Part shown: positions 33,999 to 55,577 of the stretch, piece after piece
Layout: every line of letters starts with the position of its first letter
Numbering within the stretch: position 1 is the stretch's first letter
Assembly (NCBI RefSeq): GCF_000306785.1
Contig: NC_017955.1
Span: forward strand, 1,922,001 to 1,986,000
DNA from: Modestobacter italicus
GTDB taxonomy: Bacteria > Actinomycetota > Actinomycetes > Mycobacteriales > Geodermatophilaceae
Length of the DNA stretch: 64,000 bases
Reading direction: 5' to 3'
Made by a program: the position numbers and the translations under genes
The notes under the pieces: model-generated
Database searches by the model: none
What the model was told of the DNA's origin: nothing
Seen by the model: only the letters and a program-made list of their open reading frames with translations

Positions 33999-34760
33999 CT
34001 ACCGGAGGAGTCCCAGCCCGCCACGACGCGTCCTCCGGCTCCGCGGGGCCGGGGCACGCAGGGCGCGCTGAACGGCAGCGGTCAGGCCGATGCCCACCAG
34101 GGCGGCGGCCGACGGCTTCGGCGACCACCGCAGCGCGGCGATCGCCCAGCCGACGGGTGCGTCACGCTGCCCGTCGGAGGCGCGGGTGGGTGCCGCCGTC
34201 ACTGGCTCCGGCGACGTCCCGGCGAAGGTGTCGAGCATCCCGGGCACGAAGGCGGCCATGTCCTGGGGCCCTCGGCTCGTGGTCAGGTTCCCGTCCCGGA
34301 CGAGCTCCTGGTCCAGCCAGGTGGCACCGGCGTTGACCAGGTCGTCGCGGATCCCGGGCCAGGAGGTGAGGGTCCGCCCGTCCACGAGCCCCGCCGAGGC
34401 GAGCACCCACGGCCCGTGGCAGAGGGTGGCGATCGGCTTCCCACGGGCGGCGAACGCGCTGACGAACGCCCGGGCCGGGGCCGACTGCCGGAGCAGGTCG
34501 GGGTTGATGAACCCGCCGGGGAGCAGCAGGCCGTCGTAGTCGCCGGGATCGGCGTCGTCGACCGTCGCGTCCACGCGGACTCGGCTGGCGGGCATGTGCA
34601 GGTTCACCCCGCGGATCCGTCCCCGCCGCAGGGACACGACATCGACCCGGGCACCGGCCGCCTCCAGGGCGCGCACCGGGACGACGAGCTCGACCTTCTC
34701 GAACCCGTCGGCCGCCAGGACGGCGATCCTGCGGCCCTTCAGCCGGCGTCTGGTGGGCAT
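33999..34760 (-). CDS. DJ-1/PfpI family protein with C-terminal extension
   Basis: Protein of 253 residues. Residues 10-180 are a DJ-1/PfpI domain with RIAVLAADGFEKVELVVPV, DYDGLLLPGGFINPD and the nucleophile Cys in IATLCHGPWVLASAG. The remaining 70 residues are an extra tail with a hydrophobic stretch (PSAAALVGIGLTAAVQRAL) and a basic end. Members act as glyoxalases, protein deglycases or chaperones. A shorter paralogue is encoded at 42599. Confidence 0.88.
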   Translation of the reverse strand: MPTRRRLKGRRIAVLAADGFEKVELVVPVRALEAAGARVDVVSLRRGRIRGVNLHMPASRVRVDATVDDADPGDYDGLLLPGGFINPDLLRQSAPARAFVSAFAARGKPIATLCHGPWVLASAGLVDGRTLTSWPGIRDDLVNAGATWLDQELVRDGNLTTSRGPQDMAAFVPGMLDTFAGTSPEPVTAAPTRASDGQRDAPVGWAIAALRWSPKPSAAALVGIGLTAAVQRALRAPAPRSRRTRRGGLGLLR

Positions 34761-34839: not shown

Positions 34840-35892
34840 TCACGCCGACGCCTCACGCGGCCGCCGTCCGGCGACGGCCACCCGGCGGCGGACCTGGGCG
34901 GGGACGTACAGGCCCTCCCGTTCGGCGCGGACCGCCGCGAGGGTCCTGGTCGGGGCCTCGAGCTTGCCGAGGACGTGCTCGAGGTGGGCTGCCACGGTCC
35001 GCGGGGCCACCACGAGCGAGCGGGCGATCTCGACGTTGGAGCACCCCTCGACCAGGAGGCCCAGCACCTCCAGCTCCCGCGGGGTCAGCCCGCGCAGGTG
35101 GGTCGCCGGCGACAGCAGGGCCACGGCGGTCAGCCCCGGCGGCGAGTCCTCCGGCGCGGACAGGACGGTGACCCGCACGTGCCCGTCGGGTGCGTGCGGA
35201 CCACCCACCGGCCACAGGAACGACGCGCAGACCTCCCCGTCGCAGATCCGTTCCCGGGCGGCGGCGAGCACGGGTGACCCGGTGGTGAGCAGCTCGTCCG
35301 TCGCCAGGCCCGGCAGGGGCTGGCAGCCGCCGTCCGCGCAGAGCACCACCCCGGCCGTGGCCCCTCGGACCAGGTGGGTCGCGGTGAGCAGCGAGCGCAT
35401 CGGGTCGATGCCGTGCGCGAACACCGGCGCGACCCGCGCGACCCGGCGGCGGAGGGCCGGGGACGGTGGCTGCCGGCTCCCGGTCAGCACCGCGAGATGG
35501 CCGACGTGCCGCCCCCCGGGTGCGAACAGGGCGACGCCCAGCCCCTCCCGCAGGCCGGCCGGGATGAGGCACTCGGCCCAGGTCGGGAGGTCCTCGGCCG
35601 GGTAGGGCAGGTCCGACGGGCCCAGCGGTGGACGGGCCCGGTCGGTGCCGGTGATCTCGATGTCCCGCGCCACCTGCGGGCCGGCGAGGAACTCCACGGT
35701 CGTTGCGTCCAGGTCGGCGGTCACCATGAGGTGGTAGCGGTGGGCCGGCGGATCGGTGAACGCGAGGAAGGCCCCGTCGAACGGGACCACCCGGCGGAGG
35801 ACCTCGAGCATGGCCCGCCCGCGCTCGAACGTGCTCCCTGCCGAGGCGGCGGCCTCAGCGAGCATCAGCTCACCGTCGCGGTGCGGGCGCAT
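34840..35892 (-). CDS. LuxR family regulator with N-terminal sensor domain
   Basis: Regulator of 350 residues. A GAF-like sensory part (about 10-160) opens with RGRAMLEVLRRVVPFDGAFL, and the C-terminal LuxR HTH is canonical: LTPRELEVLGLLVEGCSNVE then VAPRTVAAHLEHVLGKL. ATG 35892 follows GGGAGG by six nucleotides and is better than the GTG at 35895. A paralogue with a degenerate HTH lies at 45570. It is divergent from a LysR gene. Confidence 0.88.
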   Translation of the reverse strand: MRPHRDGELMLAEAAASAGSTFERGRAMLEVLRRVVPFDGAFLAFTDPPAHRYHLMVTADLDATTVEFLAGPQVARDIEITGTDRARPPLGPSDLPYPAEDLPTWAECLIPAGLREGLGVALFAPGGRHVGHLAVLTGSRQPPSPALRRRVARVAPVFAHGIDPMRSLLTATHLVRGATAGVVLCADGGCQPLPGLATDELLTTGSPVLAAARERICDGEVCASFLWPVGGPHAPDGHVRVTVLSAPEDSPPGLTAVALLSPATHLRGLTPRELEVLGLLVEGCSNVEIARSLVVAPRTVAAHLEHVLGKLEAPTRTLAAVRAEREGLYVPAQVRRRVAVAGRRPREASA

Positions 35893-40216: not shown

Positions 40217-40378
40217 CTACCGCACGGACCGGCGCACGGGACGCCGTCGTCCGAACATCGCGGAGATGAGGTCCGGGGGCAGCCGGCAGCCCCGGGGGCA
40301 GTCGAACTGGACGGGATCACCGTCGAGCCAGCCGAGGGCGGCCGGCCGCCCGCAGCCGGGACAGGTCTCCCACGTCAC
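40217..40378 (-). CDS. 53-residue zinc-ribbon protein
   Basis: A short frame starting GTG at 40378 encodes VTWETCPGCGRPAALGWLDG, then a second Cys pair in FDCPRGC, and a basic tail GRRRPVRRSVR. The two pairs Cys6-x2-Cys9 and Cys27-x3-Cys31 with their spacing form a likely zinc ribbon, and the arginines fit nucleic-acid binding. GGTGGG lies seven nucleotides before the GTG. Third-position GC is high throughout, which supports coding. It lies between the TetR gene and the DUF2267 gene and is easily missed because of its size. Confidence 0.62.
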   Translation of the reverse strand: MTWETCPGCGRPAALGWLDGDPVQFDCPRGCRLPPDLISAMFGRRRPVRRSVR

Positions 40379-40508
40379 GTGTGCACCCACCGAACCCCCT
40401 CCCGGTGTCCGGTACCAGGCTCGGGCAGCTCGGGCTCCCCGACCATCACGCGGTCCCGCTGGTCGGCATCGACCGCGCCGATGGCACGCCCCCGGCCGCC
40501 CGCTCCGG

Positions 40509-40883
40509 CTACCGTGCGGACCCGATCAGCTCCGCGTACTCCCGGCCCAGCTGGGCGAGCACGTCGTCGAACTCGCCCGGCTCGACGGCGTCCTGCGTCG
40601 TGGCCAGGACGGCGACCATGCCCTGCCGGGCGTCGGCCTCCTCGGTCTTCGCCTGGCGGGCGACCCGCTGCGCGAACTCCGCCGGGCCGAAGGGTTCCGC
40701 CTCCGGCGTCGGCGGGATGAGGTCGGCCTGCAGCTCTCCGGGCAGCTGCGCCCTGAGGTCGTGGGCCTCCCCACCGGTGAGCCGCTCGGCCAGCACCCGC
40801 AGCGTGGCGTGGGTGAGCGTGTCGGCCTCCTCGCGGGGCACCCCGCGGGCCCCGACCGAGGTGATGAACTCGTCGTACTGCAC
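40509..40883 (-). CDS. DUF2267 domain protein
   Basis: Protein of 124 residues: VQYDEFITSVGARGVPREEA, LTHATLRVLAERLTGGEAHD, LRAQLPGELQADL and EFAQRVARQ follow the DUF2267 pattern of paired helices with GxExxDLxAQLP. The function is unknown; members often lie in stress loci. GTG 40883 follows GGAGGGG. It is divergent from the 79-residue ORF, and an ATCGGCA-type palindrome lies between them. Confidence 0.88.
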   Translation of the reverse strand: MQYDEFITSVGARGVPREEADTLTHATLRVLAERLTGGEAHDLRAQLPGELQADLIPPTPEAEPFGPAEFAQRVARQAKTEEADARQGMVAVLATTQDAVEPGEFDDVLAQLGREYAELIGSAR

Positions 40884-40943
40884 GGTCCCCTCCTTCTGTG
40901 CGCCGGTCCGGTCCGACGCTGCCGCAGCCGGCGCGACGGCGTC

Positions 40944-40963
40944 CATCCGGAGACCTGCCGATG
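40944..40963. promoter_or_regulatory. ATCGGCA palindrome, imperfect copy
   Basis: CATCCGGA-GACC-TGCCGATG matches the perfect copy at 48505-48524 at 18 of 20 positions, including the GACC centre. It lies between the divergent DUF2267 gene and the small ORF at 41040. Confidence 0.5.
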
Positions 40964-41039
40964 TCGGCGGCACGTCCGCCGGAGGACCATCGGCCCCCGG
41001 TGCCGCGCACCGGTGGTGCCCGGACGTGAGGAGGACGTC

Positions 41040-41279
41040 ATGCGGGTGGAGGACCTCAGCGGGGACGACGCCACGGTGTACCGGGCCGTGGCCGAGCTGG
41101 AGGACGACGCCGCCGCGCCGCACCTGCAGGACCTCGCCCGCCGCACCGGCCTGGACCTGGAGCGCACCCGGTCCGCCGTGCACCGGCTGCTGCACACCGA
41201 GCCGAAGGTGCTGCACGAGGTGCCTGACACCGGCGCGACCGACCTGGGACCCGTCTACGAGCTGGCGCCGCGCACCTGA
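41040..41279 (+). CDS. Hypothetical 79-residue protein, winged-helix-like
   Basis: Acidic small protein MRVEDLSGDDATVYRAVAEL followed by LQDLARRTGLDLERTRSAVH and RLLHTEPKVLHEV. The helical part with ARRTGLDLERTRSAVHRLL looks like a helix-turn-helix fold without a family match. ATG 41040 follows GAGGAGG. It is the first gene on the plus strand after the palindrome at 40944 and precedes the formaldehyde-dehydrogenase-like operon. Confidence 0.7.
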   Translation: MRVEDLSGDDATVYRAVAELEDDAAAPHLQDLARRTGLDLERTRSAVHRLLHTEPKVLHEVPDTGATDLGPVYELAPRT

Positions 41280-41340
41280 CGGTCCTGTTCCCACGACGAG
41301 GGCTGGTCCCGGCACCTGCCTGCACCGTCCGCCCACGTCG

Positions 41341-41360
41341 TATCGGCATGTCTGCCGATA
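41341..41360. promoter_or_regulatory. ATCGGCA palindrome in front of the dehydrogenase operon
   Basis: TATCGGCA-TGTC-TGCCGATA is a perfect palindrome with 8-bp arms, 82 bp before the start of the formaldehyde-dehydrogenase-like gene. Perfect relatives lie at 48505 and 48573 in front of the third dehydrogenase. Confidence 0.68.
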
Positions 41361-41442
41361 CCGGCGTCCGCGCCCCGCGGGTGCAATCAGGCTCCCAGCC
41401 CGAGCACGGGCCGTGGGGCAGACCCGTGACCAGGGAGGCAGC

Positions 41443-42597
41443 ATGAAGGCAGTCGTGTACGAGGGGCCGCGCCAGGTCAGCGTCAAGGACGTACCGGACG
41501 CACGGATCGAGCGGCCGACCGACGTGCTGGTGCGGATCACCTCGGCGAACATCTGCGGCTCGGACCTGCACATGTACGAGGGCCGGACCGACTTCGAGCC
41601 CGGCCGCTGGTTCGGGCACGAGAACCTGGGCCAGGTGATCGAGGTCGGGGACGGGGTCGACAAGGTGCAGGTGGGGGAGTACGTCGTCCTGCCGTTCAAC
41701 ATCGCCTGCGGGCACTGCAAGAACTGCGAGCAGCAGCTCACGAACTACTGCCTGACCGCGCAGCCGAAGAAGGAGTGGGCCGGCGCCGCGTACGGCTTCG
41801 CCGACATGGGTCCGTACGGCGGGGGCCAGGCCGAGCTGCTGCGCGTGCCCTGGGGTGACTTCAACTGCCTGCGGCTGGGTGAGGACGCCGAGCAGCGCCA
41901 GACCGACTACGTGATGCTCGCCGACATCTTCCCGACCGGCTACCACGCCACCGAGCTGGCCGGCGTCAAGCCGGGCGACCAGACGGTCATCTACGGCGCC
42001 GGTCCGGTGGGGCTGATGGCCGCGCTGTCGGCGACCATCCGCGGGGCCAGCAAGGTGATGGTCGTCGACCGGCACCCCGACCGGCTGCGGCTGGCCGAGT
42101 CGATCGGCGCGATCGCGATCGACGACTCGAAGGTCGACCCGGTGCAGGCCGTCCTCGACCAGACGATGGGGCTCGGCGCGGACAACGGCTGCGAGTGCGT
42201 CGGCTACCAGGCGCACGAGCCCGACGGGCAGGAGCAGGCCAACCTGACGATGAACCGGCTGGTCGCCTCGGTGCGCTTCACCGGGAAGATCGGCAACGTC
42301 GGCGTCTTCGTGCCCCAGGACCCCGGGGCCAGCGACGAGCTGGCGAAGCAGGGCAAGCTCGCCTTCGACTACGGCATGTTCTGGTTCAAGGGCCAGCACA
42401 TCGGCAGCGGCCAGGCCCCGGTCAAGAAGTACAACCGGCAGCTGCGCGACCTCATCGCCGCGGGCAAGGCCGAGCCGTCGTTCATCGTGAGCCACGAGCT
42501 GCCCCTCGAGCGGGCGCCGGAGGCCTACGAGCACTTCGACAAGCGGGACGAGGGCTGGACCAAGGTCGTCCTCCACCCGGCGATGGCGGGGAGCTGA
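41443..42597 (+). CDS. Zn-dependent dehydrogenase, glutathione-independent formaldehyde dehydrogenase-like
   Basis: Medium-chain dehydrogenase of 384 residues. The catalytic zinc site has NICGSDLHMYEGR and FGHENLGQV, the structural site CGHCKNCEQQLTNYC with all four Cys, and the Rossmann motif IYGAGPVGLMAAL. The inserted segment WAGAAYGFADMGPYGGGQAE and DYGMFWFKGQHIGSGQAPVK are typical for glutathione-independent formaldehyde dehydrogenases. ATG 41443 follows GGGAGG. First gene of an operon with PfpI, an unknown, a second dehydrogenase and DUF1345. Confidence 0.92.
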   Translation: MKAVVYEGPRQVSVKDVPDARIERPTDVLVRITSANICGSDLHMYEGRTDFEPGRWFGHENLGQVIEVGDGVDKVQVGEYVVLPFNIACGHCKNCEQQLTNYCLTAQPKKEWAGAAYGFADMGPYGGGQAELLRVPWGDFNCLRLGEDAEQRQTDYVMLADIFPTGYHATELAGVKPGDQTVIYGAGPVGLMAALSATIRGASKVMVVDRHPDRLRLAESIGAIAIDDSKVDPVQAVLDQTMGLGADNGCECVGYQAHEPDGQEQANLTMNRLVASVRFTGKIGNVGVFVPQDPGASDELAKQGKLAFDYGMFWFKGQHIGSGQAPVKKYNRQLRDLIAAGKAEPSFIVSHELPLERAPEAYEHFDKRDEGWTKVVLHPAMAGS

Positions 42598-42598
42598 C

Positions 42599-43174
42599 AT
42601 GGCCGGCGAACTGAACGGACGGCGGGTCGCGATCCTCGCGGCCGACGGCGTGGAGCGGGTGGAGCTGGAGCAGCCGCGCCGGGCGCTGGACGACGCCGGC
42701 GCCCGCACCGATGTCGTGTCGATCACGAGCGGGGAGATCCAGGCCCGCGACCACGACCTCGAGGACGCCGGCACCTTCGGGGTGGACCGGCTCGTCGGGG
42801 CGGCATCGGTCGACGACTACGACGCGCTGCTCCTGCCCGGCGGCACGGTCAACCCGGACAAGCTGCGGATGGAGCCGGCCGCCGTGGCGTTCGTCCGGGA
42901 CTTCGTGCAGTCGGGGAAACCGGTCGCGTCGATCTGCCACGGCCCCTGGAACTTCGTCGAGGCCGACGTCGCCCGCGGCCGCCGGCTGACGTCGTGGCCG
43001 AGCGTGCGCACCGACCTGCGCAACGCCGGGGCGGAGGTGGTCGACGAGGAGGTCGTCACCGACGGCAACATCACCACCAGCCGGTCACCCGAGGACCTGC
43101 CGGCCTTCTGCGCGCGGATCGTGCAGGAGTTCGCCCGCACCCCGCAGACCGCCGGCGTGGGCGGTGGCTCGTGA
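42599..43174 (+). CDS. DJ-1/PfpI family protein (type 1 amidotransferase fold)
   Basis: Protein of 191 residues. It has RVAILAADGVERVELEQPR, DYDALLLPGGTVNPDKLR and the nucleophile Cys in VASICHGPWNFVEA, the pattern of PfpI-type stress proteases and deglycases. It starts one base after the dehydrogenase stop, so the two are coupled. In this carbonyl-handling operon a glyoxalase or deglycase role is plausible. A longer paralogue is at 33999. Confidence 0.92.
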   Translation: MAGELNGRRVAILAADGVERVELEQPRRALDDAGARTDVVSITSGEIQARDHDLEDAGTFGVDRLVGAASVDDYDALLLPGGTVNPDKLRMEPAAVAFVRDFVQSGKPVASICHGPWNFVEADVARGRRLTSWPSVRTDLRNAGAEVVDEEVVTDGNITTSRSPEDLPAFCARIVQEFARTPQTAGVGGGS

Positions 43175-43659
43175 CCAGCGCGCTGGGGAGCGTGGCCTCG
43201 CTGGCCGCCCGGGCGGGCGGCACGGTCGTCCGCCAGGTCCGCTCGGTCTTCGAGCACGGGAACGGCGCAGGTCCGGTGAAGGCCCCGGCGTCCGGCTGGC
43301 TGGTGGTGAGCGTCTACCGCGAGCCGACGGAGATCGACCCCCGCTCGCTGCCGGCGCCGCTGGCCGCGTACGGCGACCGCATCGAGACACGGGTCCGTCC
43401 GGCGCCGGGCGGCAAGGGCACCGAGCTGGCCGCGCGGCTGGTCCAGCGCTCCTCGGGGAGCGCATCCGCCCCGGCGCGGCTGACCGGCAGCGATCCGCAG
43501 GCCGACCTGCGGTCCGCGCTGCGCGAGGCCAAGCAGCTGATCGAGGTGGGCGAGGTGCTGGCGGTCGACCCGGCCCCGCACGGCAAGCGGAACGCCACGC
43601 CGGCCGGCGCGGCGCTGGAGGCGGCCACGAAGCGGGCGCCCGAGGGGGGAGTGCTGTGA
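43171..43659 (+). CDS. Conserved hypothetical protein in the dehydrogenase operon
   Basis: Protein of 162 residues. After a short basic N-terminus the central part reads WLVVSVYREPTEIDPRSLPA, IETRVRPAPGGKGTELAARL and DPQADLRSALREAKQLIEVG. This resembles SRPBCC-like small proteins found beside dehydrogenases, but I cannot name a family with confidence. GTG 43171 overlaps the PfpI stop as GTGA and its own stop overlaps the next start, so its product is made together with the enzymes. Confidence 0.8.
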   Translation: MTSALGSVASLAARAGGTVVRQVRSVFEHGNGAGPVKAPASGWLVVSVYREPTEIDPRSLPAPLAAYGDRIETRVRPAPGGKGTELAARLVQRSSGSASAPARLTGSDPQADLRSALREAKQLIEVGEVLAVDPAPHGKRNATPAGAALEAATKRAPEGGVL

Positions 43660-44831
43660 AGGCGGTGACCTGGCGGGGCGTCAACGAGGTCGGGGTGGAG
43701 GACGTCCCGGAGCCGAAGATCCTCAACGACCACGACATCATCCTCGAGGTCGGCCTGTCGGTGACCTGCGGCTCGGACCTGCACCTGCTCGGCGGCTACA
43801 TCCCCGCGATGCGCGCCGGTGACGTGCTCGGCCACGAGTTCATGGGCAGGGTGGCCGAGGTCGGCAAGAACGTCACGAAGCACCGGGTGGGCGACCGGGT
43901 CGTGGTGGTCTCCTTCACCAGCTGCGGGCAGTGCTGGTACTGCAAGAACGAGCTGTACTCCCTGTGCGACAACGGCAACCCCAACCCGGGGATCACCGAG
44001 GCGCTGTGGGGTCAGGGGATCGGCGGTTGCTACGGGTACTCCCACGCGCTGGGCGGCTACGCCGGCAGCCACGCCCCCTACATGCGCGTGCCCTACGCCG
44101 ACCAGGGGGCGTTCACCATCCCCGACGGCGTCTCCGACGAGCGTGCGCTGTTCGCCTCCGACGCGGCTCCCACCGGCTGGACCGGGGCGCACCAGGCGGA
44201 GGTGAAGGCCGGTGACGTCGTCGCGGTGTGGGGCGCCGGCGGTGTCGGGCAGATGGCCGCGCGCAAGGCGATGCTCATGGGCGCCGAGCGGGTCGTCGTC
44301 ATCGACCGGTACGACAACCGGCTGCAGCAGGTGCGGCAGCACATCGGGGCGGAGACCCTGGACTACGAGGAGGTGGACGTCCCCGCCGAGCTGCGGGAGA
44401 TGTCCGGCGGGCGCGGACCGGACGTGTGCATCGAGGCGGTGGGCATGGAGGCGCACAGCTCCGGCCCGCAGTACCTCTACGACCAGGTCAAGCAGCAGCT
44501 GCGGCTGCAGTCGGACCGGCCGACCGCCCTCCGGGAGGCCATCTACGCCTGCCGCAAGGGCGGCACGGTGTTCGCCCTCGGGGTGTTCGGCGGCCTGATC
44601 GACAAGTTCCCGATGGGGGCGGTGATGAACAAGGCGCTCACCCTGCGCGGCGCCCAGCAGCACGGGCACCGCTACGTCCCGGAGATCCTCGACCTGATGA
44701 GCCGGGACGAGGTGCGCACCGAGCACCTCGCCACCCACGTCATGCCGCTCGACGACGGGCCCAAGGGCTACCGGATGTTCAAGGAGAAGGAGGACGGGTG
44801 CGTGCGTGCCGTGTTCCGTCCCGGCACGTGA
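43656..44831 (+). CDS. Zn-dependent alcohol dehydrogenase, second of the cluster
   Basis: Medium-chain dehydrogenase of 391 residues with CGSDLHLLGG, LGHEFMGRVAEVG, the four-Cys loop SCGQCWYCKNELYSLC and the Rossmann motif VWGAGGVGQMAARKA. The extended middle (GITEALWGQGIGGCYGYSHA and YLYDQVKQQLRLQSDRPTAL) is seen in formaldehyde dehydrogenase-like and threonine dehydrogenase-like branches. GTG 43656 overlaps the preceding stop. It differs clearly from the first copy, so they are not a recent duplication. Confidence 0.92.
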   Translation: MKAVTWRGVNEVGVEDVPEPKILNDHDIILEVGLSVTCGSDLHLLGGYIPAMRAGDVLGHEFMGRVAEVGKNVTKHRVGDRVVVVSFTSCGQCWYCKNELYSLCDNGNPNPGITEALWGQGIGGCYGYSHALGGYAGSHAPYMRVPYADQGAFTIPDGVSDERALFASDAAPTGWTGAHQAEVKAGDVVAVWGAGGVGQMAARKAMLMGAERVVVIDRYDNRLQQVRQHIGAETLDYEEVDVPAELREMSGGRGPDVCIEAVGMEAHSSGPQYLYDQVKQQLRLQSDRPTALREAIYACRKGGTVFALGVFGGLIDKFPMGAVMNKALTLRGAQQHGHRYVPEILDLMSRDEVRTEHLATHVMPLDDGPKGYRMFKEKEDGCVRAVFRPGT

Positions 44832-44883
44832 GGCACCGACGGCGCCGGGCCGGCCCGGCGCCGTGGCGCTGCGGGGCTCCCGG

Positions 44884-45558
44884 GTGAGCGTGGCCCCGGC
44901 CGGGACGGCGGTGGAGGCGGGCCGGCGCCCGACGATCCTGTCGTGGCGCCGCCTGCTCGTCTGCCTGGTCGGCGGCGTCCTCGCGGCCGGGGTGCCCGTC
45001 GTCGCCGGTGTCCCCGAGGTCTCGGTGCTCGTCGGCTGGACGGTCGCGGCCGGCGGCCTGCTGACCTGGGTGTGGCGGATCAGCTGGCCGCGCGACTGGG
45101 AGGCGACCAAGCGGCTGGCCGAGGAGGAGGGGCGGACCCACGTCACGGATGCAGCCGTGCTGGGCGCGGCGGTGGTCAGCCTGGCCGCCGTCGCCGAGGC
45201 GCTCGTCCGGTCCAGCGCGCAGGACGCCGTCGGCGTCGCCACCGTGGTGCTCGGCGTCCTGGTGGTGATCCTGTCGTGGGCGCTGGTCAACACGGTGTTC
45301 GCCCTCAAGTACGCCCGCCGGTACTACTCGGGGGGCGACGGTGGGATCGACTTCGGCCAGGAGGAACCGCCCGCCTACAGCGACTTCGCCTACGTCGCGT
45401 TCACCGTCGGGATGAGCTTCGCGGTGCCGGACACCCAGCTCGTGGACACCTCGATCCGCAAGGTCGCCCTCGGGCACGCGCTGCTGTCCTTCCTGTTCGG
45501 GACCGTGGTCATCGCGGTGGCCGTCAACCTCGTCACCAACCTGGGGCAGCAGGGGTAG
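44884..45558 (+). CDS. DUF1345 family membrane protein
   Basis: Membrane protein of 224 residues. Hydrophobic segments are at about 21-38, 42-58, 90-110, 115-135, 162-180 and 195-218. LSWALVNTVFALKYARRYYS and YVAFTVGMSFAVPDTQLVDT are DUF1345 signatures. The function is unknown. GTG 44884 is chosen as the first with acceptable spacing to GGGG; GTG 44863 is possible. It probably ends the operon that starts at 41443. Confidence 0.85.
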   Translation: MSVAPAGTAVEAGRRPTILSWRRLLVCLVGGVLAAGVPVVAGVPEVSVLVGWTVAAGGLLTWVWRISWPRDWEATKRLAEEEGRTHVTDAAVLGAAVVSLAAVAEALVRSSAQDAVGVATVVLGVLVVILSWALVNTVFALKYARRYYSGGDGGIDFGQEEPPAYSDFAYVAFTVGMSFAVPDTQLVDTSIRKVALGHALLSFLFGTVVIAVAVNLVTNLGQQG

Positions 45559-45569
45559 GCGCCCGGGCG

Positions 45570-46613
45570 CTACCGGCGCCCGGTCCGTGCCGGGCAGCTC
45601 AGCGCCGGGGGGATGCGCAGCCCGGTGCGCAGCGCCCGCGTGGCGGCGGCGGTGACACCGGGGGCGTCGAGGGCGACCTCGGCCCGGCGGAGGGCCTCGG
45701 TCGTGGTGTGCCGCTCGAGTCCGAGGGCCGCGGCGAGCGCGGCGACCTCCGTGGTGCCCGCCGCCAGGTGCCCCAGCAGCCGGAGGTCGAGCGGGGTGAG
45801 ACCGCGCAGGTCCCCGGGGGCGGACAGCAGCACGGCGGCCGACAGGTGGTCGAGCTCGGGCAGGGCGCAGTCCAGTGCGGTGACCCGGGCCAGCCCTCCT
45901 CCGTCCGGGTCGGCCACCGGCGCGAGGAAGGCGGTGGAGCGGCCACCGGCGGACAGCTCGTGGCCGGCCACCGCCAGGACCGGTGAGCCGGCGGCCAGCA
46001 GGCGGTCGTCCGGCAGCCCGGGCAGGGGGACGGTGTCCCCGCCGCGGGTGAGCACCACGCCCGCCGTGGCGGTCCCGACGAGCCCGGCGATCGTGGCGAT
46101 CTCCCGCGTCCGGTCCAGGTCGTCGGCGATGACCCCGGTGACGGCGGCGAGGACCCGCCGGTCGGCCGGGCTGGGCCGCGTGGGGTCCTCGGTGAGGAGG
46201 CTCAGGAACCCCACGTGCCGGCCGGTCGAGGCGAACAGCGGGGCGGCGACGCCGCCGCGGAACCCGGCCGGCAGCAGGTGCTCGCCCCAGGCGCGGACCT
46301 CGGGGAGGGGCACCGGCAGCTCACTGGCCAGCACCGGGCACCGGGCCCGGTCGAGCCCGAGGTGCTCGACCTCGGCGTCCGCCCCCGGGGAGGCGAAGTA
46401 GCGGCGCAGCGGCCCGGCCGGACCCGTGGTGGCCAGCGGGACGTGCCGGCGCCGCTCGGGGTCGCGGACCGCGAGCCACCCCGAGTCGAAGGGCAGGACC
46501 CGGCCCAGCGCCTCGAGGACCGCCTCGGCGCGCTGGTCCAGGCCCGCCGTCGTCGTGCCGACGTCGACCAGCTCCTCCTGCAGGCGCACCAGCGCCTCGT
46601 CGCCGTCCTCCAT
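45570..46613 (-). CDS. GAF-type regulator with degenerate LuxR HTH
   Basis: Protein of 347 residues with the same plan as the LuxR regulator at 34840: a GAF-like N-terminal part (RAEAVLEALGRVLPFDSGWL), a middle with LLPAGFRGGVAAPLFASTGR, VGFLSLLTEDPTRPSPADRR, and a C-terminal HTH region LRGLTPLDLRLLGHLAAGTT. The recognition helix RTVxxHL of true LuxR proteins is replaced by ERHTTTEALRRAEVAL, so DNA binding may be altered. ATG 46613. An imperfect ATCGGCA palindrome lies about 60-80 bp upstream. Confidence 0.8.
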   Translation of the reverse strand: MEDGDEALVRLQEELVDVGTTTAGLDQRAEAVLEALGRVLPFDSGWLAVRDPERRRHVPLATTGPAGPLRRYFASPGADAEVEHLGLDRARCPVLASELPVPLPEVRAWGEHLLPAGFRGGVAAPLFASTGRHVGFLSLLTEDPTRPSPADRRVLAAVTGVIADDLDRTREIATIAGLVGTATAGVVLTRGGDTVPLPGLPDDRLLAAGSPVLAVAGHELSAGGRSTAFLAPVADPDGGGLARVTALDCALPELDHLSAAVLLSAPGDLRGLTPLDLRLLGHLAAGTTEVAALAAALGLERHTTTEALRRAEVALDAPGVTAAATRALRTGLRIPPALSCPARTGRR

Positions 46614-46672
46614 CGCGCCTCCCGGATCCGCGCGTTGACCCTCCTCATCGTGCCGACGTCGAGGTACCGGCC

Positions 46673-46692
46673 CATCGGCAGCCCGACCGATC
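46673..46692. promoter_or_regulatory. ATCGGCA half-palindrome near the GAF regulator
   Basis: CATCGGCA is followed after GCCC by GACCGATC, which keeps five of eight bases of the second arm. It lies 60 bp upstream of the regulator start and would fit weak autoregulation. Confidence 0.35.
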
Positions 46693-46730
46693 TCGCGGGT
46701 GCGCCGGGCCGGGGCCGGTGCGCCGGCCCG

Positions 46731-48083
46731 TCACCCCGGGACGCGCGCGCCGAGCCGGACCCCTGCGCTCGTGCCCAGCCGCACGGCGGTGGTGACGTCG
46801 GCTCCGGACCCGATGCCCTCGGCATCGGGCGTCAGTGCGGCGGTGACGTCCTCCTCGTCGTCGTACGCCCGGTGGACGGCGGCGGTCAGCAGCCGGAGCT
46901 GGCGGTCGAGCGGCGCCTGCCGGTCGGGCGGGGCGACGCCCTTGAGGTCGTGCAGGGCCGCGCACAGCCGGCGGGTCACCTGCGGCGAGGTCGTGCCGGC
47001 CAGCCGGATCTCGTCGAAGGCGAGCCGCACGTAGCCCTCCCAGGACAGCGTCCGCTCGACCAGCCGCACCACGCCGTCGGGGTCCCGGTGCTCGCCCGGG
47101 GGCAGGGGGCGCACGGCGAGCTGGCGGAGCAGGTCGTGCAGCCGGTGCAGCGACTGCAGGGTCGTCGTCGGGTCGTCGAACGGCTGGGCGATGGACCGTT
47201 CCGCGATGTCGACCAGCTTCCGCAGGCCGTAGGAGGGGTCCTCCGCGTGCACGCGCTCGGGCCCCACGAGGACCAGCCGCGCGATGTCCTCGGCCCGCAA
47301 CAGCGACACCGGGCCGGCGACGTCCTGCGCCTGCCCGGGCCCGGGGTGCACGCGGAACAGCGGCGCCCCACCGGGCACGAAGTCGCCGACGACGGGGACC
47401 AGTTCGAGGACGCAGTCGGCGCGGCGCGCGGCGGCGACCAGCCCGGCACGGTCGACCCGGACGATGTTCCCCGGCTCGCGCGCGGGGACCACGTTCCCGT
47501 CGGCGTCCGGGCCGGTCGCCGGTCCGGGCGATGCGGAGGAGGACGACGTGATGAGGTCGCGGGTCCGGTCGCCGACCAGGTCGATCAGACCGCTGGCTCG
47601 CATGGTCTGCCCGGAGTGGTGCACGAAGAGGACCAGCGTCACCAGGCTGGCGGCCATCAGCAGGTGGCTCAGCAGCATCGAGACGCCGGGGACGGTGCCG
47701 GTGTCCGAGCCCCGGATCTCCCGGAGGGTGAGCACGGCGACGACGAACGTCGCCCCGAACAGGCCGATCGCCAGCTGGCTGAACCGGTCGGAGAGCAGCG
47801 CGCCCACGATCCGCGGGGAGAACTGCCCCATCGCCAGCTGCACCACCACCAGCGTCACGGTCAGCACGAGGCTGGTCAGCGAGGCCATCGCGGTGGCGAA
47901 CACCGACAGGGTCGTCTGCGCGTCGCTGGGCGTCCCCGTCACGCTCAGCGGTACCAGGGTGTAGCCCGAGCGGCGGTCGAGCCAGAGCGTGCACAGGACG
48001 ACCAGCACGCCGGCCAGGACGCACAGCAGGGGGACCAGCCAGAGGCTGCTCCGCACGGCGTGCACGAAGCGGGTCAGGGGCAT
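46731..48083 (-). CDS. DUF2254 family membrane protein
   Basis: Membrane protein of 450 residues. Four N-terminal helices (about 15-35, 60-85, 103-120 and 135-152) are followed by a large soluble domain. LVLTVTLVVVQLAMGQFSPR and RLVERTLSWEGYVRLAFDEI, as well as VHHSGQTMRASGLID, are DUF2254 signatures. The function is unknown. ATG 48083 follows AGGAGG. It is on the same strand as the GAF regulator, 117 bp upstream of it. Confidence 0.9.
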   Translation of the reverse strand: MPLTRFVHAVRSSLWLVPLLCVLAGVLVVLCTLWLDRRSGYTLVPLSVTGTPSDAQTTLSVFATAMASLTSLVLTVTLVVVQLAMGQFSPRIVGALLSDRFSQLAIGLFGATFVVAVLTLREIRGSDTGTVPGVSMLLSHLLMAASLVTLVLFVHHSGQTMRASGLIDLVGDRTRDLITSSSSASPGPATGPDADGNVVPAREPGNIVRVDRAGLVAAARRADCVLELVPVVGDFVPGGAPLFRVHPGPGQAQDVAGPVSLLRAEDIARLVLVGPERVHAEDPSYGLRKLVDIAERSIAQPFDDPTTTLQSLHRLHDLLRQLAVRPLPPGEHRDPDGVVRLVERTLSWEGYVRLAFDEIRLAGTTSPQVTRRLCAALHDLKGVAPPDRQAPLDRQLRLLTAAVHRAYDDEEDVTAALTPDAEGIGSGADVTTAVRLGTSAGVRLGARVPG

Positions 48084-48174
48084 CGGGGTTCCTCCTGGGC
48101 TGAGGCCGGCGGGTCGTGCGCCGGCTGCGGGAGGCGCGTGAGCGGGACGTCGAGCCCGGGGCTCGCCCTCGCGG

Positions 48175-48393
48175 TCAGACCAGCCCCTCGTTGTGGGGCT
48201 CGATGCTCGCCGAGGGGTCCACGCCCTCGTCGGCGTCGGGCTGGACGGGGCCCTCGCCCGGTTCCGAACCCGACCCCGCAGCGGTGTTGCGGGACGACCG
48301 TTCCGGGTCGGTGACGTCCGTGGTCGTCGGCGCCTGACCGATGCGCTCGGCGGCCTCCCCGGTCCCGGTCTCCTCCAGCTCTGACTCGCTCAC
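48175..48393 (-). CDS. Small acidic disordered protein
   Basis: Protein of 72 residues starting VSESELEETGTGEAAERIG and rich in Glu, Asp, Ser, Gly and Pro to the end; no hydrophobic core is present. GTG 48393 is directly preceded by GGAGGAG. The acidic hydrophilin-like composition is often linked with desiccation or osmotic stress, but no family is recognised. It lies upstream of DUF2254 on the same strand, and two ATCGGCA palindromes lie 112-198 bp before its start. Confidence 0.65.
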   Translation of the reverse strand: MSESELEETGTGEAAERIGQAPTTTDVTDPERSSRNTAAGSGSEPGEGPVQPDADEGVDPSASIEPHNEGLV

Positions 48394-48504
48394 GACTCCT
48401 CCATCCGGCTCGTCCGGTGCCTGTGCTCCCGACACGGCTGCGCGGGCCGGACGCGTCCTGCCCCGTCCGGTTCCCCCAACCTGGCCGACGCCGCCAGCGC
48501 GGAC

Positions 48505-48524
48505 CATCGGCAGACCTGCCGATG
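48505..48524. promoter_or_regulatory. ATCGGCA palindrome, perfect copy 2
   Basis: CATCGGCA-GACC-TGCCGATG has perfect 8-bp arms. It lies between the acidic-protein gene and the third dehydrogenase, 68 bp before another perfect copy. Confidence 0.7.
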
Positions 48525-48572
48525 TGCGAGCGCGGGCGCCCCGCCGCGGCCCGGACGGGGGGCACCTCGAGG

Positions 48573-48590
48573 ATCGGCAGATCTGCCGAT
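48573..48590. promoter_or_regulatory. ATCGGCA palindrome, perfect copy 3
   Basis: ATCGGCAGATCTGCCGAT is a perfect 18-bp palindrome, 111 bp before the third dehydrogenase start. Its centre also forms an AGATCT hexamer. The pair of sites suggests cooperative binding. Confidence 0.7.
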
Positions 48591-48701
48591 GTGCACGGGA
48601 GCTCGGCCGGTGCAGGGTGAGAGGCCCGGTGAGCAGCCGCCGGCCGGGCGCTCCGCGGTGCACTCCTGCCACCCGGGGCCCGCGCCCCAGGAGGCGATCC
48701 C

Positions 48702-49850
48702 GTGCGAGCGATGGTGTACCGGGGGCCCTACAAGGTCAGGGTCGAGGAGAAGGAACGGCCGGCGATCGAGCACCCCAACGACGCGATCGTGAAGGTGCAG
48801 CTGGCCGCGATCTGCGGCTCCGACCTGCACCTCTACCACGGGATGATGCCGGACACCCGGATCGGGCACACCTTCGGCCACGAGTTCATCGGGGTGGTCG
48901 ACGAGGTCGGGTCCTCGGTGCGCAACCTGGCCGTCGGCGACCGGGTGATGGTGCCGTTCAACATCTTCTGCGGCACCTGCTGGTACTGCGCCCGGGGGCT
49001 CTACTCCAACTGCCACAACGTCAACCCCAACGCCACGGCGGTGGGCGGCATCTACGGCTACTCGCACACCACCGGCGGCTACGACGGCGGGCAGGCGGAG
49101 TACGTGCGGGTGCCCTTCGCCGACGTCGGCCCCGCCAAGATCCCGGACTGGATGGCCGACGAGGACGCGGTGCTGCTCACCGACATGACGGCGACCGGCT
49201 ACTTCGGGGCGCAGCTGGGCGACATCGTCCAGGGCGACGTCGTCGTCGTCTTCGGCGCCGGGCCCGTCGGGCTGGTGGCGGCGCGGTCGGCCTGGCTGAT
49301 GGGGGCCGGCCGGGTCATCGTCATCGACCACCTGGACCACCGGCTGGAGAAGGCGCGCACGTTCGCCCAGGCCGAGACGTACAACTTCACCGAGTACGCC
49401 GACATCGTGCTCGAGATGAAGAAGACCACCGACTTCCTCGGCGCCGACGTGGCCATCGAGTGCGTGGGCGCCGAGGCCGACGGCGACTTCCTCCAGCACG
49501 TCACCTCCGCCAAGCTCAAGCTGCAGGGCGGCTCGCCGGTCGCGCTGAACTGGGCGATCGACTCGGTCCGCAAGGGCGCGACGATCTCGGTGATGGGCGC
49601 CTACGGCCCGTTGTTCAGCGCCGTCAAGTTCGGCGACGCGATGAACAAGGGGCTGACGATCCACACCAACCAGTGCCCGGTCAAGCGGCAGTGGCCCCGG
49701 CTGTTCGAGCACGTGCGCAACGGCCACCTCCGGCCCAGCGAGCTGGCCACCCACCGCGTCCCGCTGGAGCACATCGCCGAGGGCTACCACATGTTCTCGG
49801 CCAAGCTCGACGGCATCATCAAGCCCCTCGTCGTCCCGACCGCGGCGTGA
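48702..49850 (+). CDS. Zn-dependent alcohol dehydrogenase, third of the cluster
   Basis: Medium-chain dehydrogenase of 382 residues: ICGSDLHLYHGMMPD, FGHEFIGVVDEVG, four-Cys loop FCGTCWYCARGLYSNC and Rossmann motif VFGAGPVGLVAARSA. GIYGYSHTTGGYDGGQAEYV places it in the same wide group as the second copy. GTG 48702 follows AGGAGG. It is followed after 19 bp by an unknown gene, with which it is probably co-transcribed under the two palindromes upstream. Confidence 0.93.
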   Translation: MRAMVYRGPYKVRVEEKERPAIEHPNDAIVKVQLAAICGSDLHLYHGMMPDTRIGHTFGHEFIGVVDEVGSSVRNLAVGDRVMVPFNIFCGTCWYCARGLYSNCHNVNPNATAVGGIYGYSHTTGGYDGGQAEYVRVPFADVGPAKIPDWMADEDAVLLTDMTATGYFGAQLGDIVQGDVVVVFGAGPVGLVAARSAWLMGAGRVIVIDHLDHRLEKARTFAQAETYNFTEYADIVLEMKKTTDFLGADVAIECVGAEADGDFLQHVTSAKLKLQGGSPVALNWAIDSVRKGATISVMGAYGPLFSAVKFGDAMNKGLTIHTNQCPVKRQWPRLFEHVRNGHLRPSELATHRVPLEHIAEGYHMFSAKLDGIIKPLVVPTAA

Positions 49851-49869
49851 GCACCAGGGAGACCCGGAG

Positions 49870-50442
49870 ATGACCTACACCCCGCAGAAGCCGCCGATCG
49901 CGGAGTCGCCCGAGGAGCTGCGGAGGCGCATCCCGGGCTGGGGCGTCGACCTCGACCCCAAGGACCGCCCGTCGGTGCCGAAACTGCAGTTGCAGGAGGA
50001 CCTGACCGGTGCGCACTGGGAGTTCCCCGAGCGGCAACCGGAGAGGTACCCGCGGGAGCGCTCGCCCGAGCACGGGATGCTGACCCCGGTCTTCGGCACC
50101 GCCCAGCCGCCGACCGGCGTCCCGGGGGCCATCCGCCGGCACGCCTACCGCTACAGCGAGGGACGCTCGGCGCACTGGCTGCTGCTCCTGTTCGCCGACC
50201 GGGTCGACGCGTGGGAGCACCACCTGCGGTCGCTCCTGACCCTGCGCCCGGACAACCCGATCACCGAGACCGGGGTCAAGGCCGAGTTCACCCGCCACGG
50301 ACTGCGGTCGCGGGTCGGGCAGCACCGCACGGACCTCAAGCACCAGCTGCTCGACCCGGTGATCGTGGCCGGACCGTGGGTCGCGGCAGCCTGGCTGGTG
50401 TACGCCGGCGTCCGGAGGGTGGTCAGGGCCCTGCAGTCCTGA
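49870..50442 (+). CDS. Conserved hypothetical protein following the third dehydrogenase
   Basis: Protein of 190 residues. The polar N-terminal half reads MTYTPQKPPIAESPEELRRR and IPGWGVDLDPKDRPSVPKL; then RRHAYRYSEGRSAHWLLLLF and a helix WEHHLRSLLTLRPDN precede a hydrophobic C-terminal segment (VIVAGPWVAAAWLVYAGVRR) that may be a membrane helix. The family is not recognised. The close spacing to the dehydrogenase gene suggests a common role. Confidence 0.75.
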   Translation: MTYTPQKPPIAESPEELRRRIPGWGVDLDPKDRPSVPKLQLQEDLTGAHWEFPERQPERYPRERSPEHGMLTPVFGTAQPPTGVPGAIRRHAYRYSEGRSAHWLLLLFADRVDAWEHHLRSLLTLRPDNPITETGVKAEFTRHGLRSRVGQHRTDLKHQLLDPVIVAGPWVAAAWLVYAGVRRVVRALQS

Positions 50443-52797: not shown

Positions 52798-55545
52798 TCA
52801 CCGCGGTGGCGCAGGGGCGTGCCCCATCGCGGTGAGGGCGTCGCGGAGCGCGGCACGCGAGGTGATGCCGAGCCGCGGGAACAGGCTGTACAGGTGGGCC
52901 CCGACGGTCCTCGGCGAGACGTAGAGCAGCCGGCCGATCTCCTTGTTGGTCTTCCCCTCGGCGGCCAGCATCGCGATCTGCAGCTCCTGCGCCGTGAGCG
53001 CGCCCGGGTCGGCCCGGTGCTGCCGGACGTGGTGCTCGCCCGTGGCGCGGAGCTCCCGCTCGGCGCGCTCCCGCCACGGGACGGCGCCGAGGTCGGCGAA
53101 CAGCTCGGCGGCGGCGGACAGGTGGGTCCGGGCCAGCTTCGACGCCCGGGACCGCTGCAGCCGCTCACCGAAGAGCAGCCGCGAGCGTGCGTGGTCGAAG
53201 CACCACCGGGGCGACTCGTCGCCGGCGAGGGCCGACTCGAACAGTGCCCGGTACTCCGCCTCGGGCGCCACCACGCCGGCCGCCGTGCCCACCACCAGGG
53301 CCAGCCGGGAGGACAGCCCCGCGACGTCGAGGGCCAGGAGCGCGTCGACGTGCGCCCGGGCCGCGGCGTGGTGACCGCTGCGCTCGGCGGCCTCGACCAG
53401 GTCCAGCGCCACCCACAGCGCGTGCGGCACGTGCGGCGGCAGGTCGCCGGCGGGGGAGACGGCGCAGGCCTGCTGGTAGGCCTCCTCGACGTCGCCGGTG
53501 GACAGCGCCGCCAGGCAGCGCAGGTGTGCGGCGAAGACGGCGGCGACGCCCGCGCCCCGGGTCTGCGCCCAGTCGTGCAGCTCGTCGGCGGCGACCCGGC
53601 TGCGCTCGAGGTCCCCGCGGACCGTCCCCACCAGGGCCGCCAGGTAGCTGCCCAGGATCCACGAGTAGCGGTGGTACCCGTGCCGCTCCGCCAGCTGGAC
53701 GCCCTCGGACGTCTGCGCGAGCACGCGGTCCCAGCGACCGTGGTGCCAGTCGTCGTTGCTCAACGTCGTCAGCGCGTGCATGGCCAGGGCGACGGCGCCG
53801 CCGGAGCGGCCGTCCTCGACGACGCGGTCGAGAGCGGGCCGGCAGTCCTCGATCCGGTCGACGTAGACGCTCGCCAGCCCGACCCGGGTGATGAGCACCG
53901 GGTCCCGCTCGTCGTGGAGCTCCCTGATCGCCCCTGCGAGCGCGGAGAGCAGCGGTGCGGCGCGGTGCGCCGGGTCGGCGAACGTGCCGGCGCACAGCGC
54001 CAGCAGTGGCGGGGCGCCGGGGCGCAGCCGGGCGACCGCGGCGTCGAAGCTGCGCCACAGCTCCGCCCGCCCGCCGGTCCAGCACACGAGCAGGAGGCTG
54101 TGCAGGACGTCCGCCAGGTCGCCGTCGGTCGCGTCGAGGTCGCCGCCGACCGCCGCGAGCGCGCCGGCCAGCAAGCCGTGCGCGGCGTCGATGTCGCAGT
54201 CGCCGTTGAGCAGCACGTAGGACGCGGCGAGCGCGGCGGCCAACGACTGCGGCAGCTCGACCGCCCCCGAGCGCGCCTGCTCCAGCAGCGCCAGGGCGCC
54301 GTCGAGGTCGCCGGTCACGTCGGCACCCAGGTAGGCGGCCTCGGCGAGGCGCCGGCGGCGGTCCCGCGGCGAGGGGCTGAGCTGCGCGGCGCGGACCAGC
54401 GCCTCCACGGCACCGTTCGGGTCCCCGCGCCGCAGGTGGAGCCCGGCTGCCTCGTCGAGTGCGGTCGCGACGTCCTCGTCCGGCTCGATGCTCGCCCCGG
54501 CCAGGTGCACGGCCCGGCGGACCACGTCCCCGTCCACCGCCGCGGCCAGCGCCCGGTGGGCGGCGTGCCGCTCCTCGGCCGTGGACAGGGCGACGACCGC
54601 GGCCCCGGCCAGCGGGTGGCAGAAGCCGACCCGGCGCACCCGGTCGTCGACGTAGACCAGGTCGGCGCGCTCGGCCGGGGCGAGGTCGGCGAGCACCGGT
54701 GGCCCGGCGGCGGCGTGCAGCACCTGGAGGTGCCCGGTGCCCGACAGGGCCGTCAGGAGGAGCACCTGCCGCGAGCGCGGGGGCAGGCCGCTGACGCGGG
54801 AGGCGAACAGGTGCTGCACCCGCCGGCTGACCGAGCCCGACGTCGGGCCGTCCCCGGTCCCACCGGACGGCGCCGTGGGCAGCTCGAGCAGCGCCAGGGC
54901 GTTGCCCCGCGCCTCGTGGACGAACCGCGCCGTCTGGGCACGGGTGAGCCCGGGGAAGCGCGCGGCCAGGACCCGGGTGGCGGCGTCCGGGGGGAGCGGC
55001 CGGATCTCGAGCTCGGTGAGGTCCGAGCGCTCGAAGGCGGTGGACGTGCCGGTGCGCAGCGTGGCGACCAGACCGATCCGCAGCGGGCCCACCCGGCGGG
55101 CGACGAAGCCGAGGACCGCCGCGCTCAGCCGGTCCACCCACTGCAGGTCGTCGACCGTGACCAGCACCGGCCGGGACCTGCTGGCCTCGGTGAGCAGGGC
55201 CAGGGCCGCACCGGCCACGGCGCCCGCGGTCGGGGAGGGGCCGTCCTCGAGCCCGAGCGCCGTCCGCAGTGCCTGCCGGTGGGGTCTGCCGAGCGCGCCC
55301 AGCGCGTCGACCAGCGGGAGGACCAGCTGGCTGAGCGCTGCGTAGGGGAGGTCCGCCTCGAACTCCACCCCGCTCGCCGCCAGCACGAGGAGCTCCGCCG
55401 GCCCGGTCCGGGTGGCCGCGACCAGCAGCGCGGTCTTGCCGGCGCCGGCCTCCCCGAGGAGCACGAGCGCCTGACCGCGCTCGGGCAGCCCCCGCACCAG
55501 CGCGGTGAGGACCTCGAGCTCGGCGTCCCGGCCCTCGAGCGTCAC
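52798..55545 (-). CDS. LAL-type LuxR regulator with AAA ATPase domain, second copy
   Basis: Regulator of 915 residues. Walker A GEAGAGKT lies at 31-38 and RPVLVTVDDLQWVDRLSAAV is the Walker B region. A long helical middle precedes the C-terminal LuxR HTH LTAQELQIAMLAAEGKTNKE with VSPRTVGAHLYSLFPRLGI. GTG 55545 gives the family-typical opening VTLEGRDAELEVL and overlaps the TGA of a leader ORF. It faces the dehalogenase-hydrolase-cupin genes and may control them through the TGACCGATGC motif. Confidence 0.92.
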   Translation of the reverse strand: MTLEGRDAELEVLTALVRGLPERGQALVLLGEAGAGKTALLVAATRTGPAELLVLAASGVEFEADLPYAALSQLVLPLVDALGALGRPHRQALRTALGLEDGPSPTAGAVAGAALALLTEASRSRPVLVTVDDLQWVDRLSAAVLGFVARRVGPLRIGLVATLRTGTSTAFERSDLTELEIRPLPPDAATRVLAARFPGLTRAQTARFVHEARGNALALLELPTAPSGGTGDGPTSGSVSRRVQHLFASRVSGLPPRSRQVLLLTALSGTGHLQVLHAAAGPPVLADLAPAERADLVYVDDRVRRVGFCHPLAGAAVVALSTAEERHAAHRALAAAVDGDVVRRAVHLAGASIEPDEDVATALDEAAGLHLRRGDPNGAVEALVRAAQLSPSPRDRRRRLAEAAYLGADVTGDLDGALALLEQARSGAVELPQSLAAALAASYVLLNGDCDIDAAHGLLAGALAAVGGDLDATDGDLADVLHSLLLVCWTGGRAELWRSFDAAVARLRPGAPPLLALCAGTFADPAHRAAPLLSALAGAIRELHDERDPVLITRVGLASVYVDRIEDCRPALDRVVEDGRSGGAVALAMHALTTLSNDDWHHGRWDRVLAQTSEGVQLAERHGYHRYSWILGSYLAALVGTVRGDLERSRVAADELHDWAQTRGAGVAAVFAAHLRCLAALSTGDVEEAYQQACAVSPAGDLPPHVPHALWVALDLVEAAERSGHHAAARAHVDALLALDVAGLSSRLALVVGTAAGVVAPEAEYRALFESALAGDESPRWCFDHARSRLLFGERLQRSRASKLARTHLSAAAELFADLGAVPWRERAERELRATGEHHVRQHRADPGALTAQELQIAMLAAEGKTNKEIGRLLYVSPRTVGAHLYSLFPRLGITSRAALRDALTAMGHAPAPPR

Positions 55546-55577
55546 GACGGCTGGCGGAACGGGTGATCGACGGCCAT
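55542..55577 (-). CDS. Possible 11-codon leader ORF coupled to the LAL regulator
   Basis: ATG 55577 lies four nucleotides behind GGGGAGG and encodes MAVDHPFRQPS; its TGA overlaps the regulator GTG as GTGA. Third of four such leaders in the window. Confidence 0.42.
   Translation of the reverse strand: MAVDHPFRQPS

Follow-up and report, generated by a model that had tools for sequence, protein, structure and literature searches.

A rare palindrome at a Zn-dehydrogenase gene cluster of Modestobacter italicus and its likely GAF-LuxR regulator

Introduction

Do the genes around three divergent Zn-dehydrogenases of Modestobacter italicus form one regulon and, if so, which protein reads the site that they share? 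The question is raised by a stretch of 64,000 nucleotides (positions 1,922,001 to 1,986,000 of NC_017955.1; hereafter the window) from a single-contig genome of 5.58 Mb with a GC content of ~75%. At 40217-50442 of the window, the dehydrogenases (ADH1, ADH2 and ADH3) lie together with a DJ-1/PfpI protein, DUF2267, DUF1345 and DUF2254 proteins, a GAF-type protein, a zinc-ribbon-like protein and several further small proteins, and copies of the palindrome ATCGGCA-N4-TGCCGAT precede their units. An earlier note, made from the sequence alone, had proposed that these genes respond together to aldehyde, oxidative or desiccation stress. Here, we followed the site through its own genome, 112 genomes of the family Geodermatophilaceae and 394 genomes of the class. 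The sequence comparisons make it probable that these genes constitute a small local regulon with GAF2 as its regulator, a GAF-LuxR protein encoded 5.5 kb from ADH1 and outside the span originally reported.

Results

The perfect palindrome occurred three times in the 5.58-Mb genome, always within the cluster, and the same pattern read backwards occurred nowhere; the earlier note had asked for this genome-wide scan as a check. With up to three mismatches allowed, the window contained 7 matches against 2.35 expected, and 3 of 100 shuffled sequences also reached 7. Enrichment at three mismatches is therefore modest, and the perfect copies are the strong result; the three-mismatch matches at 6440 and 43842 (the latter within a gene) look like chance. 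A looser core, ATCGG-N8-CCGAT, had 9 sites in the genome vs 1 for its control, of which 4 were in the cluster, 2 preceded a second ADH1-PfpI-p162-ADH2 copy and 3 were apparently unrelated. In relatives, ATCGGTC was frequent as one or both half-sites. If neighbouring genes are cotranscribed, all genes from 40217 to 50442 can be assigned to units that begin behind a site with either no or two mismatches; cotranscription was assumed for three same-strand pairs (DUF2267-zinc ribbon, ADH2-DUF1345 and p73-DUF2254).

The second copy lies at ~3.77 Mb of the same genome (L097 11119-15759) and carries two near-palindromes. GAF2- and GAF-type genes lie upstream of it (the match to its GAF gene spans residues 46-339), and a gene resembling a transposase by eye is found ~1.8 kb downstream.

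Among the 112 family genomes, 23 had a perfect copy of the palindrome, with 33 sites in total and none for the reversed control. A gene of the set began within 350 bp downstream of 25 of these sites, and the central four bases of these were GACC, GGTC, GATC, GACA or TGTC in 23 of 25 cases, vs 2 of the 8 other sites. Upstream of ADH1, the site was present in 25 of 37 distinct regions, centred 82-151 bp before the start. It was found in 20 of 20 regions with GAF2 in the stretch vs 5 of 17 without; the five site-bearing genomes of the latter group had GAF2 within 8 kb, and around the 12 ADH1 relatives lacking the site, GAF2 was likewise not seen in the stretch. By these counts the site is enriched, lies upstream of the putative member genes and is kept in relatives, which marks the cluster as a predicted regulon. 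Neither a palindrome at background frequency nor a lack of shared conservation was found, and the co-regulation suggested in the earlier note is well supported at the level of sequence.

On a 3-kb contig too short to assess GAF2 (L151), a weak candidate site preceded ADH1. In genome G021 (L075 9910), DUF2267 was preceded by a perfect copy that had the usual centre, close to PfpI2, a second DJ-1/PfpI protein, and a ClpB-like gene. Elsewhere among relatives, site neighbours included a ClpB-like ATPase and a glycogen-debranching-type enzyme.

In many ADH1 upstream regions, a block near GGGTGCAATC followed ~20 bp downstream of the site. Taken as a -10 region, this block would place the centre of the site near -45, the position usual for LuxR-class activators.

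Which protein would read the palindrome? GAF2 has a C-terminal LuxR-type helix-turn-helix (HTH; GerE, 54.9 bits in Pfam) that resembled the structures of DosR/DevR, VraR and NarL. In its AF2 model (predicted local distance difference test, pLDDT, 81.6), GAF-fold matches extended over residues 1-174, with VIA-align rows covering mainly residues 1-173. Since the site is nearly constant, the helix that reads it is expected to be nearly constant as well. In hand-chosen sets of close sequences (17 GAF2-type and 19 GAF-type), mean identity was 0.88 for the recognition helix of GAF2-type proteins vs 0.39 for GAF-type proteins and 0.86 vs 0.56 for the whole HTH, with equally diverged N-terminal parts (0.64 and 0.65). 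GAF2-type genes were near all 25 site-bearing cluster copies and GAF-type genes near 16, a count that draws on unequal amounts of sequence among genomes and for which GAF2-bearing stretches of G012, G093 and G053 were deliberately included; after exclusion of the 4 copies found through GAF2, the figures were 21 of 21 and 15 of 21.

At the level of whole genomes, the lists with the palindrome (23 of 112) and with the GAF2 family (28 of 112) had 20 members in common (Fisher 6.5e-13), and all 22 genomes with a close ADH1 were in the GAF2 list. These lists were compiled by hand from searches that covered 108 or 112 genomes (the 108-genome tables being approximate), and the GAF2 query also retrieves GAF-type relatives; moreover, part of the association is common inheritance, because GAF2, the site and ADH1 are clustered.

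The GAF-type protein within the reported span was the other obvious candidate, and would regulate its own gene through the near-palindrome at 46674. Its gene sits inside the cluster, similar sites precede it in relatives, and it was found in 17 of the 22 genomes with a close ADH1 (hand list). However, the protein has no LuxR match, its recognition helix diverges although the site hardly does, and it was unseen near nine of the 25 copies (G107, G054, G080, G076, G053, G313, G408, G382 and G448), so that we regard it as an improbable reader. A TetR gene (39545) and two LysR genes (36103 and 38505) also lie nearby, and the product of any of them might read the site, perhaps to repress. Palindromes close to the regulator's own gene are common targets of TetR proteins, and LysR 36103 was near 13 of the 25 copies, but TetR was near only 2 and LysR 38505 near only 4, which leaves this reading very improbable. 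Helix conservation and co-occurrence counts led us to set aside the GAF-type protein and the TetR and LysR proteins as candidates for reading it. GAF2, which the earlier note had missed, is the likely regulator acting through the palindrome, and the GAF protein within the span a weaker candidate.

Two arrangements of these genes in relatives are of separate interest. In G033, G095, G097, G098 and G015, a GAF2-like gene and a GAF-type gene form a tandem, an arrangement that would fit a regulator pair. In G046 (L061 6518-7530), the GAF2 gene reads as two pieces in different frames although the cluster keeps good sites; this is either a broken gene or a sequencing error.

Beyond the family, the perfect palindrome was found in 17 of 394 class genomes, and among these it had the usual centre only in the M. 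italicus genome, G204 and G313; in the last two it preceded ADH1, near a GAF2 gene. GAF2 itself was present in 9 of the 394 genomes, 8 of them outside the family. Six of these 8 had ADH1 in the stretch, preceded by a site with 0-1 half-site mismatches, with GAF2 proteins only 44-62% identical.

Several points weigh against GAF2 acting through this site, besides the shared inheritance and the deliberately added stretches mentioned above. No site with three or fewer mismatches was found before GAF2 in the window scan, and G021 had a good site and no GAF2 match. The 12 ADH1 genes lacking the site are also more distant (74-79%). In the -10-like block, exact TGCAATC was present in only 8 of 15 distinct loci. 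Outside the family, G133 and G162 had GAF2, with ADH1 not in the stretch: G133 carried an SRPBCC-ADH2-like pair in its place, and in the 11-kb piece from G162 neither was seen. Finally, 8 of the 33 perfect family sites lay away from these genes; together with the inverted-repeat form and the three copies within 7 kb, this would suit a structural or repeat element devoid of regulatory role. Against such an element, 77 of 82 sites were intergenic by the gene calls, with similar spacing to the next start (some overlapping stretches being counted twice, and the gene caller, trained on 12 window genes, failing in lower-GC genomes), and perfect copies occur nowhere else in the M. italicus genome. 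A purely structural role is hardly credible.

The gene content described in the earlier note and its perfect and near-perfect palindromes were borne out by Pfam and motif scans (Table 1). Pfam cut-offs were passed by the three Zn-dehydrogenases and the DJ-1/PfpI, DUF2267, DUF1345, DUF2254 and GAF proteins, the last narrowly (GAF_2, 29.5 vs 28.6 bits); the proteins at 40217, 41040, 43171, 48175 and 49870 had no match in the Pfam scan. Outside the cluster, window positions 52798-55851 encode a large regulator that combines an AAA domain and TPR-like repeats with a LuxR HTH at its C-terminus.

The protein at 43171, p162, aligned by hhalign (98.3%, E 1.4e-14, 76 columns) with the family of an SRPBCC protein that precedes an ADH2 paralogue in relatives; this family itself matches PF03364. 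The alignment is limited to the C-terminal half, and none of 16 members of the p162 family matched Pfam. By profile similarity, p162 is a partial SRPBCC relative; neither a complete domain nor a direct Pfam match was found.

The protein p190 directly followed ADH3 in all 79 testable loci (those with at least 1.2 kb upstream, among the best 80 of 101 confirmed), with a gap of 5-109 bp (median 17); L124 was excluded from this count, and ADH3 precedes p190 there too. The p190 alignment had 41 invariant columns among 38 sequences, and its AF2 model had a pLDDT of 61.6 and a predicted template modelling score of 0.32. Within the family, 66 of 112 genomes had p190, 10 with a copy of at least 81% identity and the others at most 76%. 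A perfect or one-mismatch site was present in 8 of the best 80 loci: six from Geodermatophilaceae (L112-L115, L117 and L118), and L165 and L172 from Arthrobacter, where the same one-mismatch sequence ~2.5 kb before ADH3 looks unrelated. At ~2.20 Mb, the M. italicus genome has another ADH3-p190 pair (L079 9544-11288; identities 83% and 64%), before which no palindrome with two or fewer mismatches was found.

Compared to the equivalog cut-off of 636.95 bits of TIGR02819, the model for glutathione-independent formaldehyde dehydrogenase, the scores of ADH1 (314.2), ADH2 (154.8) and ADH3 (180.9) were low, and the PfpI protein (149.7) and PfpI2 (152.5) passed the cut-off of 139.05 bits of TIGR01382, the DJ-1/PfpI/YhbO subfamily. 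In ADH1, Cys, His, Asp and four further Cys positions align with those of 4jlw, 1kol and 2dph; we take the first three to be ligands of the catalytic zinc and the four Cys to be structural. The PfpI protein aligned with 2vrn over 2-181, and the AICHGPW/SICHGPW motif was kept.

The neighbours of the site in relatives bear on what the cluster may do. A perfect site separates ADH3 from a formate dehydrogenase gene in G092, where cydA and cydB come next in line after p190; G042 has the variant ATCGGTCGATCGACCGAT, its centre 70 bp ahead of a cydA-family gene. The formate dehydrogenases of G092 (L059 10061-13330) and L326-L329 contain an in-frame TAG at what is presumably the selenocysteine position. 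A tRNA-Sec family match with anticodon CUA (labelled Pyl by ARAGORN) was found in G092, G042, G054 and the M. italicus genome; UAG might thus encode selenocysteine in G092 and M. italicus. Mukai and colleagues reportedly described UAG-programmed selenoproteins in Geodermatophilus and Blastococcus in 2016. These neighbours fit aldehyde oxidation via formate into respiration, and also a low-oxygen response.

A coupling of aldehyde disposal to respiration is plausible, and we propose an aldehyde role for the regulon tentatively. Of the stress role proposed in the earlier note, the aldehyde or oxidative part is supported indirectly, by the FdhA-like enzyme, the DJ-1/PfpI protein and the formate dehydrogenase and cytochrome bd genes of G092, but nothing points to desiccation. 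Alternatively, the cluster could respond primarily to low oxygen, as OsdR/DosR regulons do, and only secondarily handle aldehydes. The cytochrome bd genes and the structures matched by the GAF2 HTH are in keeping with this, as are the OsdR sites of Streptomyces coelicolor, which are likewise grouped around the regulator and lie ahead of Zn-dehydrogenase genes (PMC5069765). However, three patterns for the OsdR/DosR-type box gave no match from 33.9 to 51.6 kb of the window, GAF2 has a GAF domain where OsdR and DosR have a receiver domain, and no universal stress gene was among the Pfam matches of the cluster. We consider a primary low-oxygen role unlikely.

Table 1. Features of the cluster and its surroundings (window coordinates).
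Feature	Position	Strand	Remarks
PfpI2, second DJ-1/PfpI protein, near GAF2	33999..34760	-	TIGR01382 152.5 bits (cut-off 139.05); homologues in clusters of several relatives
GAF2-type regulator, GAF domain and standard LuxR HTH; best candidate palindrome reader	34840..35892	-	
Small zinc-ribbon-like protein	40217..40390	-	No Pfam match; homologue beside ADH1 site in G042
DUF2267 protein	40509..40883	-	PF10025, 104 bits
Palindrome with 2 mismatches, DUF2267/sp80 intergenic	40945..40962	.	Better-kept copies between or before same genes in relatives
sp80, 79 residues, no known family	41040..41279	+	No Pfam match; present in 9 stretches of family set
Perfect palindrome upstream of ADH1	41342..41359	.	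Centre to ADH1 start 92-93 bp
ADH1, FdhA-like Zn-dehydrogenase	41443..42597	+	Top PDB matches 4jlw, 1kol, 2dph
DJ-1/PfpI protein	42599..43174	+	PF01965, 171 bits; top PDB match 2vrn
p162, partial SRPBCC relative (by profile)	43171..43659	+	hhalign to SRPBCC family over C-terminal half
ADH2, Zn-dehydrogenase	43656..44831	+	PF08240/PF00107; top PDB match 4cpd
DUF1345 membrane protein	44863..45558	+	PF07077, 182 bits (scan began at 44806)
GAF-type protein, GAF2 relative with diverged HTH region	45570..46613	-	GAF_2 29.5 bits, no LuxR match
Asymmetric near-palindrome (2 mismatches) upstream of GAF-type gene	46674..46691	.	Similar sites before same gene in relatives
DUF2254 membrane protein	46731..48083	-	PF10011, 332 bits
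p73, small, no known family	48175..48393	-	No Pfam match; site upstream in several relatives
Perfect palindrome, p73/ADH3 intergenic	48506..48523	.	
Perfect palindrome, p73/ADH3 intergenic	48573..48590	.	
ADH3, Zn-dehydrogenase	48702..49850	+	PF08240/PF00107; top PDB match 4cpd
p190, conserved actinobacterial protein, no known fold	49870..50442	+	Directly after ADH3; 41 invariant columns

Discussion

We propose that GAF2, a one-component GAF-LuxR regulator, recognises the 18-bp palindrome, probably in dimeric form, and would activate the neighbouring units: DUF2267 together with the zinc ribbon; sp80; ADH1-PfpI-p162-ADH2-DUF1345; the GAF-type gene; p73-DUF2254; and ADH3-p190. The GAF domain of GAF2 may sense a small molecule, and the GAF-type relative with its diverged HTH may modulate GAF2. 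The output would most likely be the oxidation of short aldehydes or alcohols by the FdhA-like enzymes, with the DJ-1/PfpI protein handling carbonyls and electrons passing to respiration. As a whole, this is the explanation that we favour, with some reserve.

A bolder combination is also conceivable, in which the cluster is an aldehyde-disposal module that carries two regulators of its own: a GAF-LuxR activator and a tuner with a decayed helix, the two perhaps joining as a heterodimer where the half-sites are asymmetric (ATCGGCA/ATCGGTC). The fullest form of the module is that of G092. There, aldehyde would be oxidised by FdhA-like enzymes to formate, formate by the UAG-selenocysteine formate dehydrogenase and the electrons passed to oxygen by cytochrome bd, while p190 would partner ADH3 in association with the membrane. 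With all of its parts taken jointly, we find this combination rather doubtful.

An exact site and a named regulator candidate are now available for actinobacterial genes that lacked an assigned role, and p190 stands behind a highly conserved dehydrogenase at every testable locus. If the proposal is true, FdhA-like dehydrogenases and DJ-1/PfpI, DUF1345, DUF2254 and DUF2267 proteins would belong to one response, and the regulator pair would be one in which one member keeps its DNA-reading helix and the other loses it.

In our literature search, in which most subscription papers were outside the scope, no paper on the regulon or its motif was found; the papers used for comparison were PMC5069765, PMC6691914, PMC4847777 and PMC3023750. 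RamA of Corynebacterium glutamicum is a one-component regulator with an N-terminal GAF-2 domain and a C-terminal LuxR-type HTH. GAF2 is also one-component, and its modelled architecture, an N-terminal GAF fold followed by a LuxR HTH, is RamA-like in domain order. However, GAF2 scored only 21.7 bits against NF041673 (cut-off 500), over residues 269-326, that is, the HTH alone, and the reported RamA motifs are GGGG/CCCC stretches, unlike ATCGGCA-N4-TGCCGAT.

The likeness to OsdR and DosR (DevR of mycobacteria) is that a LuxR-class HTH would read a palindrome at several units near the regulator, Zn-dehydrogenases included. OsdR and DosR differ in being two-component receiver regulators with the site AGGGCCGATCGGCCCT, whereas the N-terminal half of GAF2 has a GAF fold and no receiver domain; sensor kinases were outside the search.

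Among the enzymes, the nearest solved relatives of ADH1 are 4jlw, 1kol (glutathione-independent formaldehyde dehydrogenase) and 2dph (formaldehyde dismutase), although ADH1 falls under the equivalog cut-off and ADH2 and ADH3 are nearer 4cpd. The PfpI protein has as its top PDB match 2vrn, which we take to be DR1199 of Deinococcus radiodurans, and keeps its motif; it differs in that the PfpI gene would here be cotranscribed with dehydrogenases, and its activity is putative. Overall, we file the cluster as a previously undescribed regulon of a known type.

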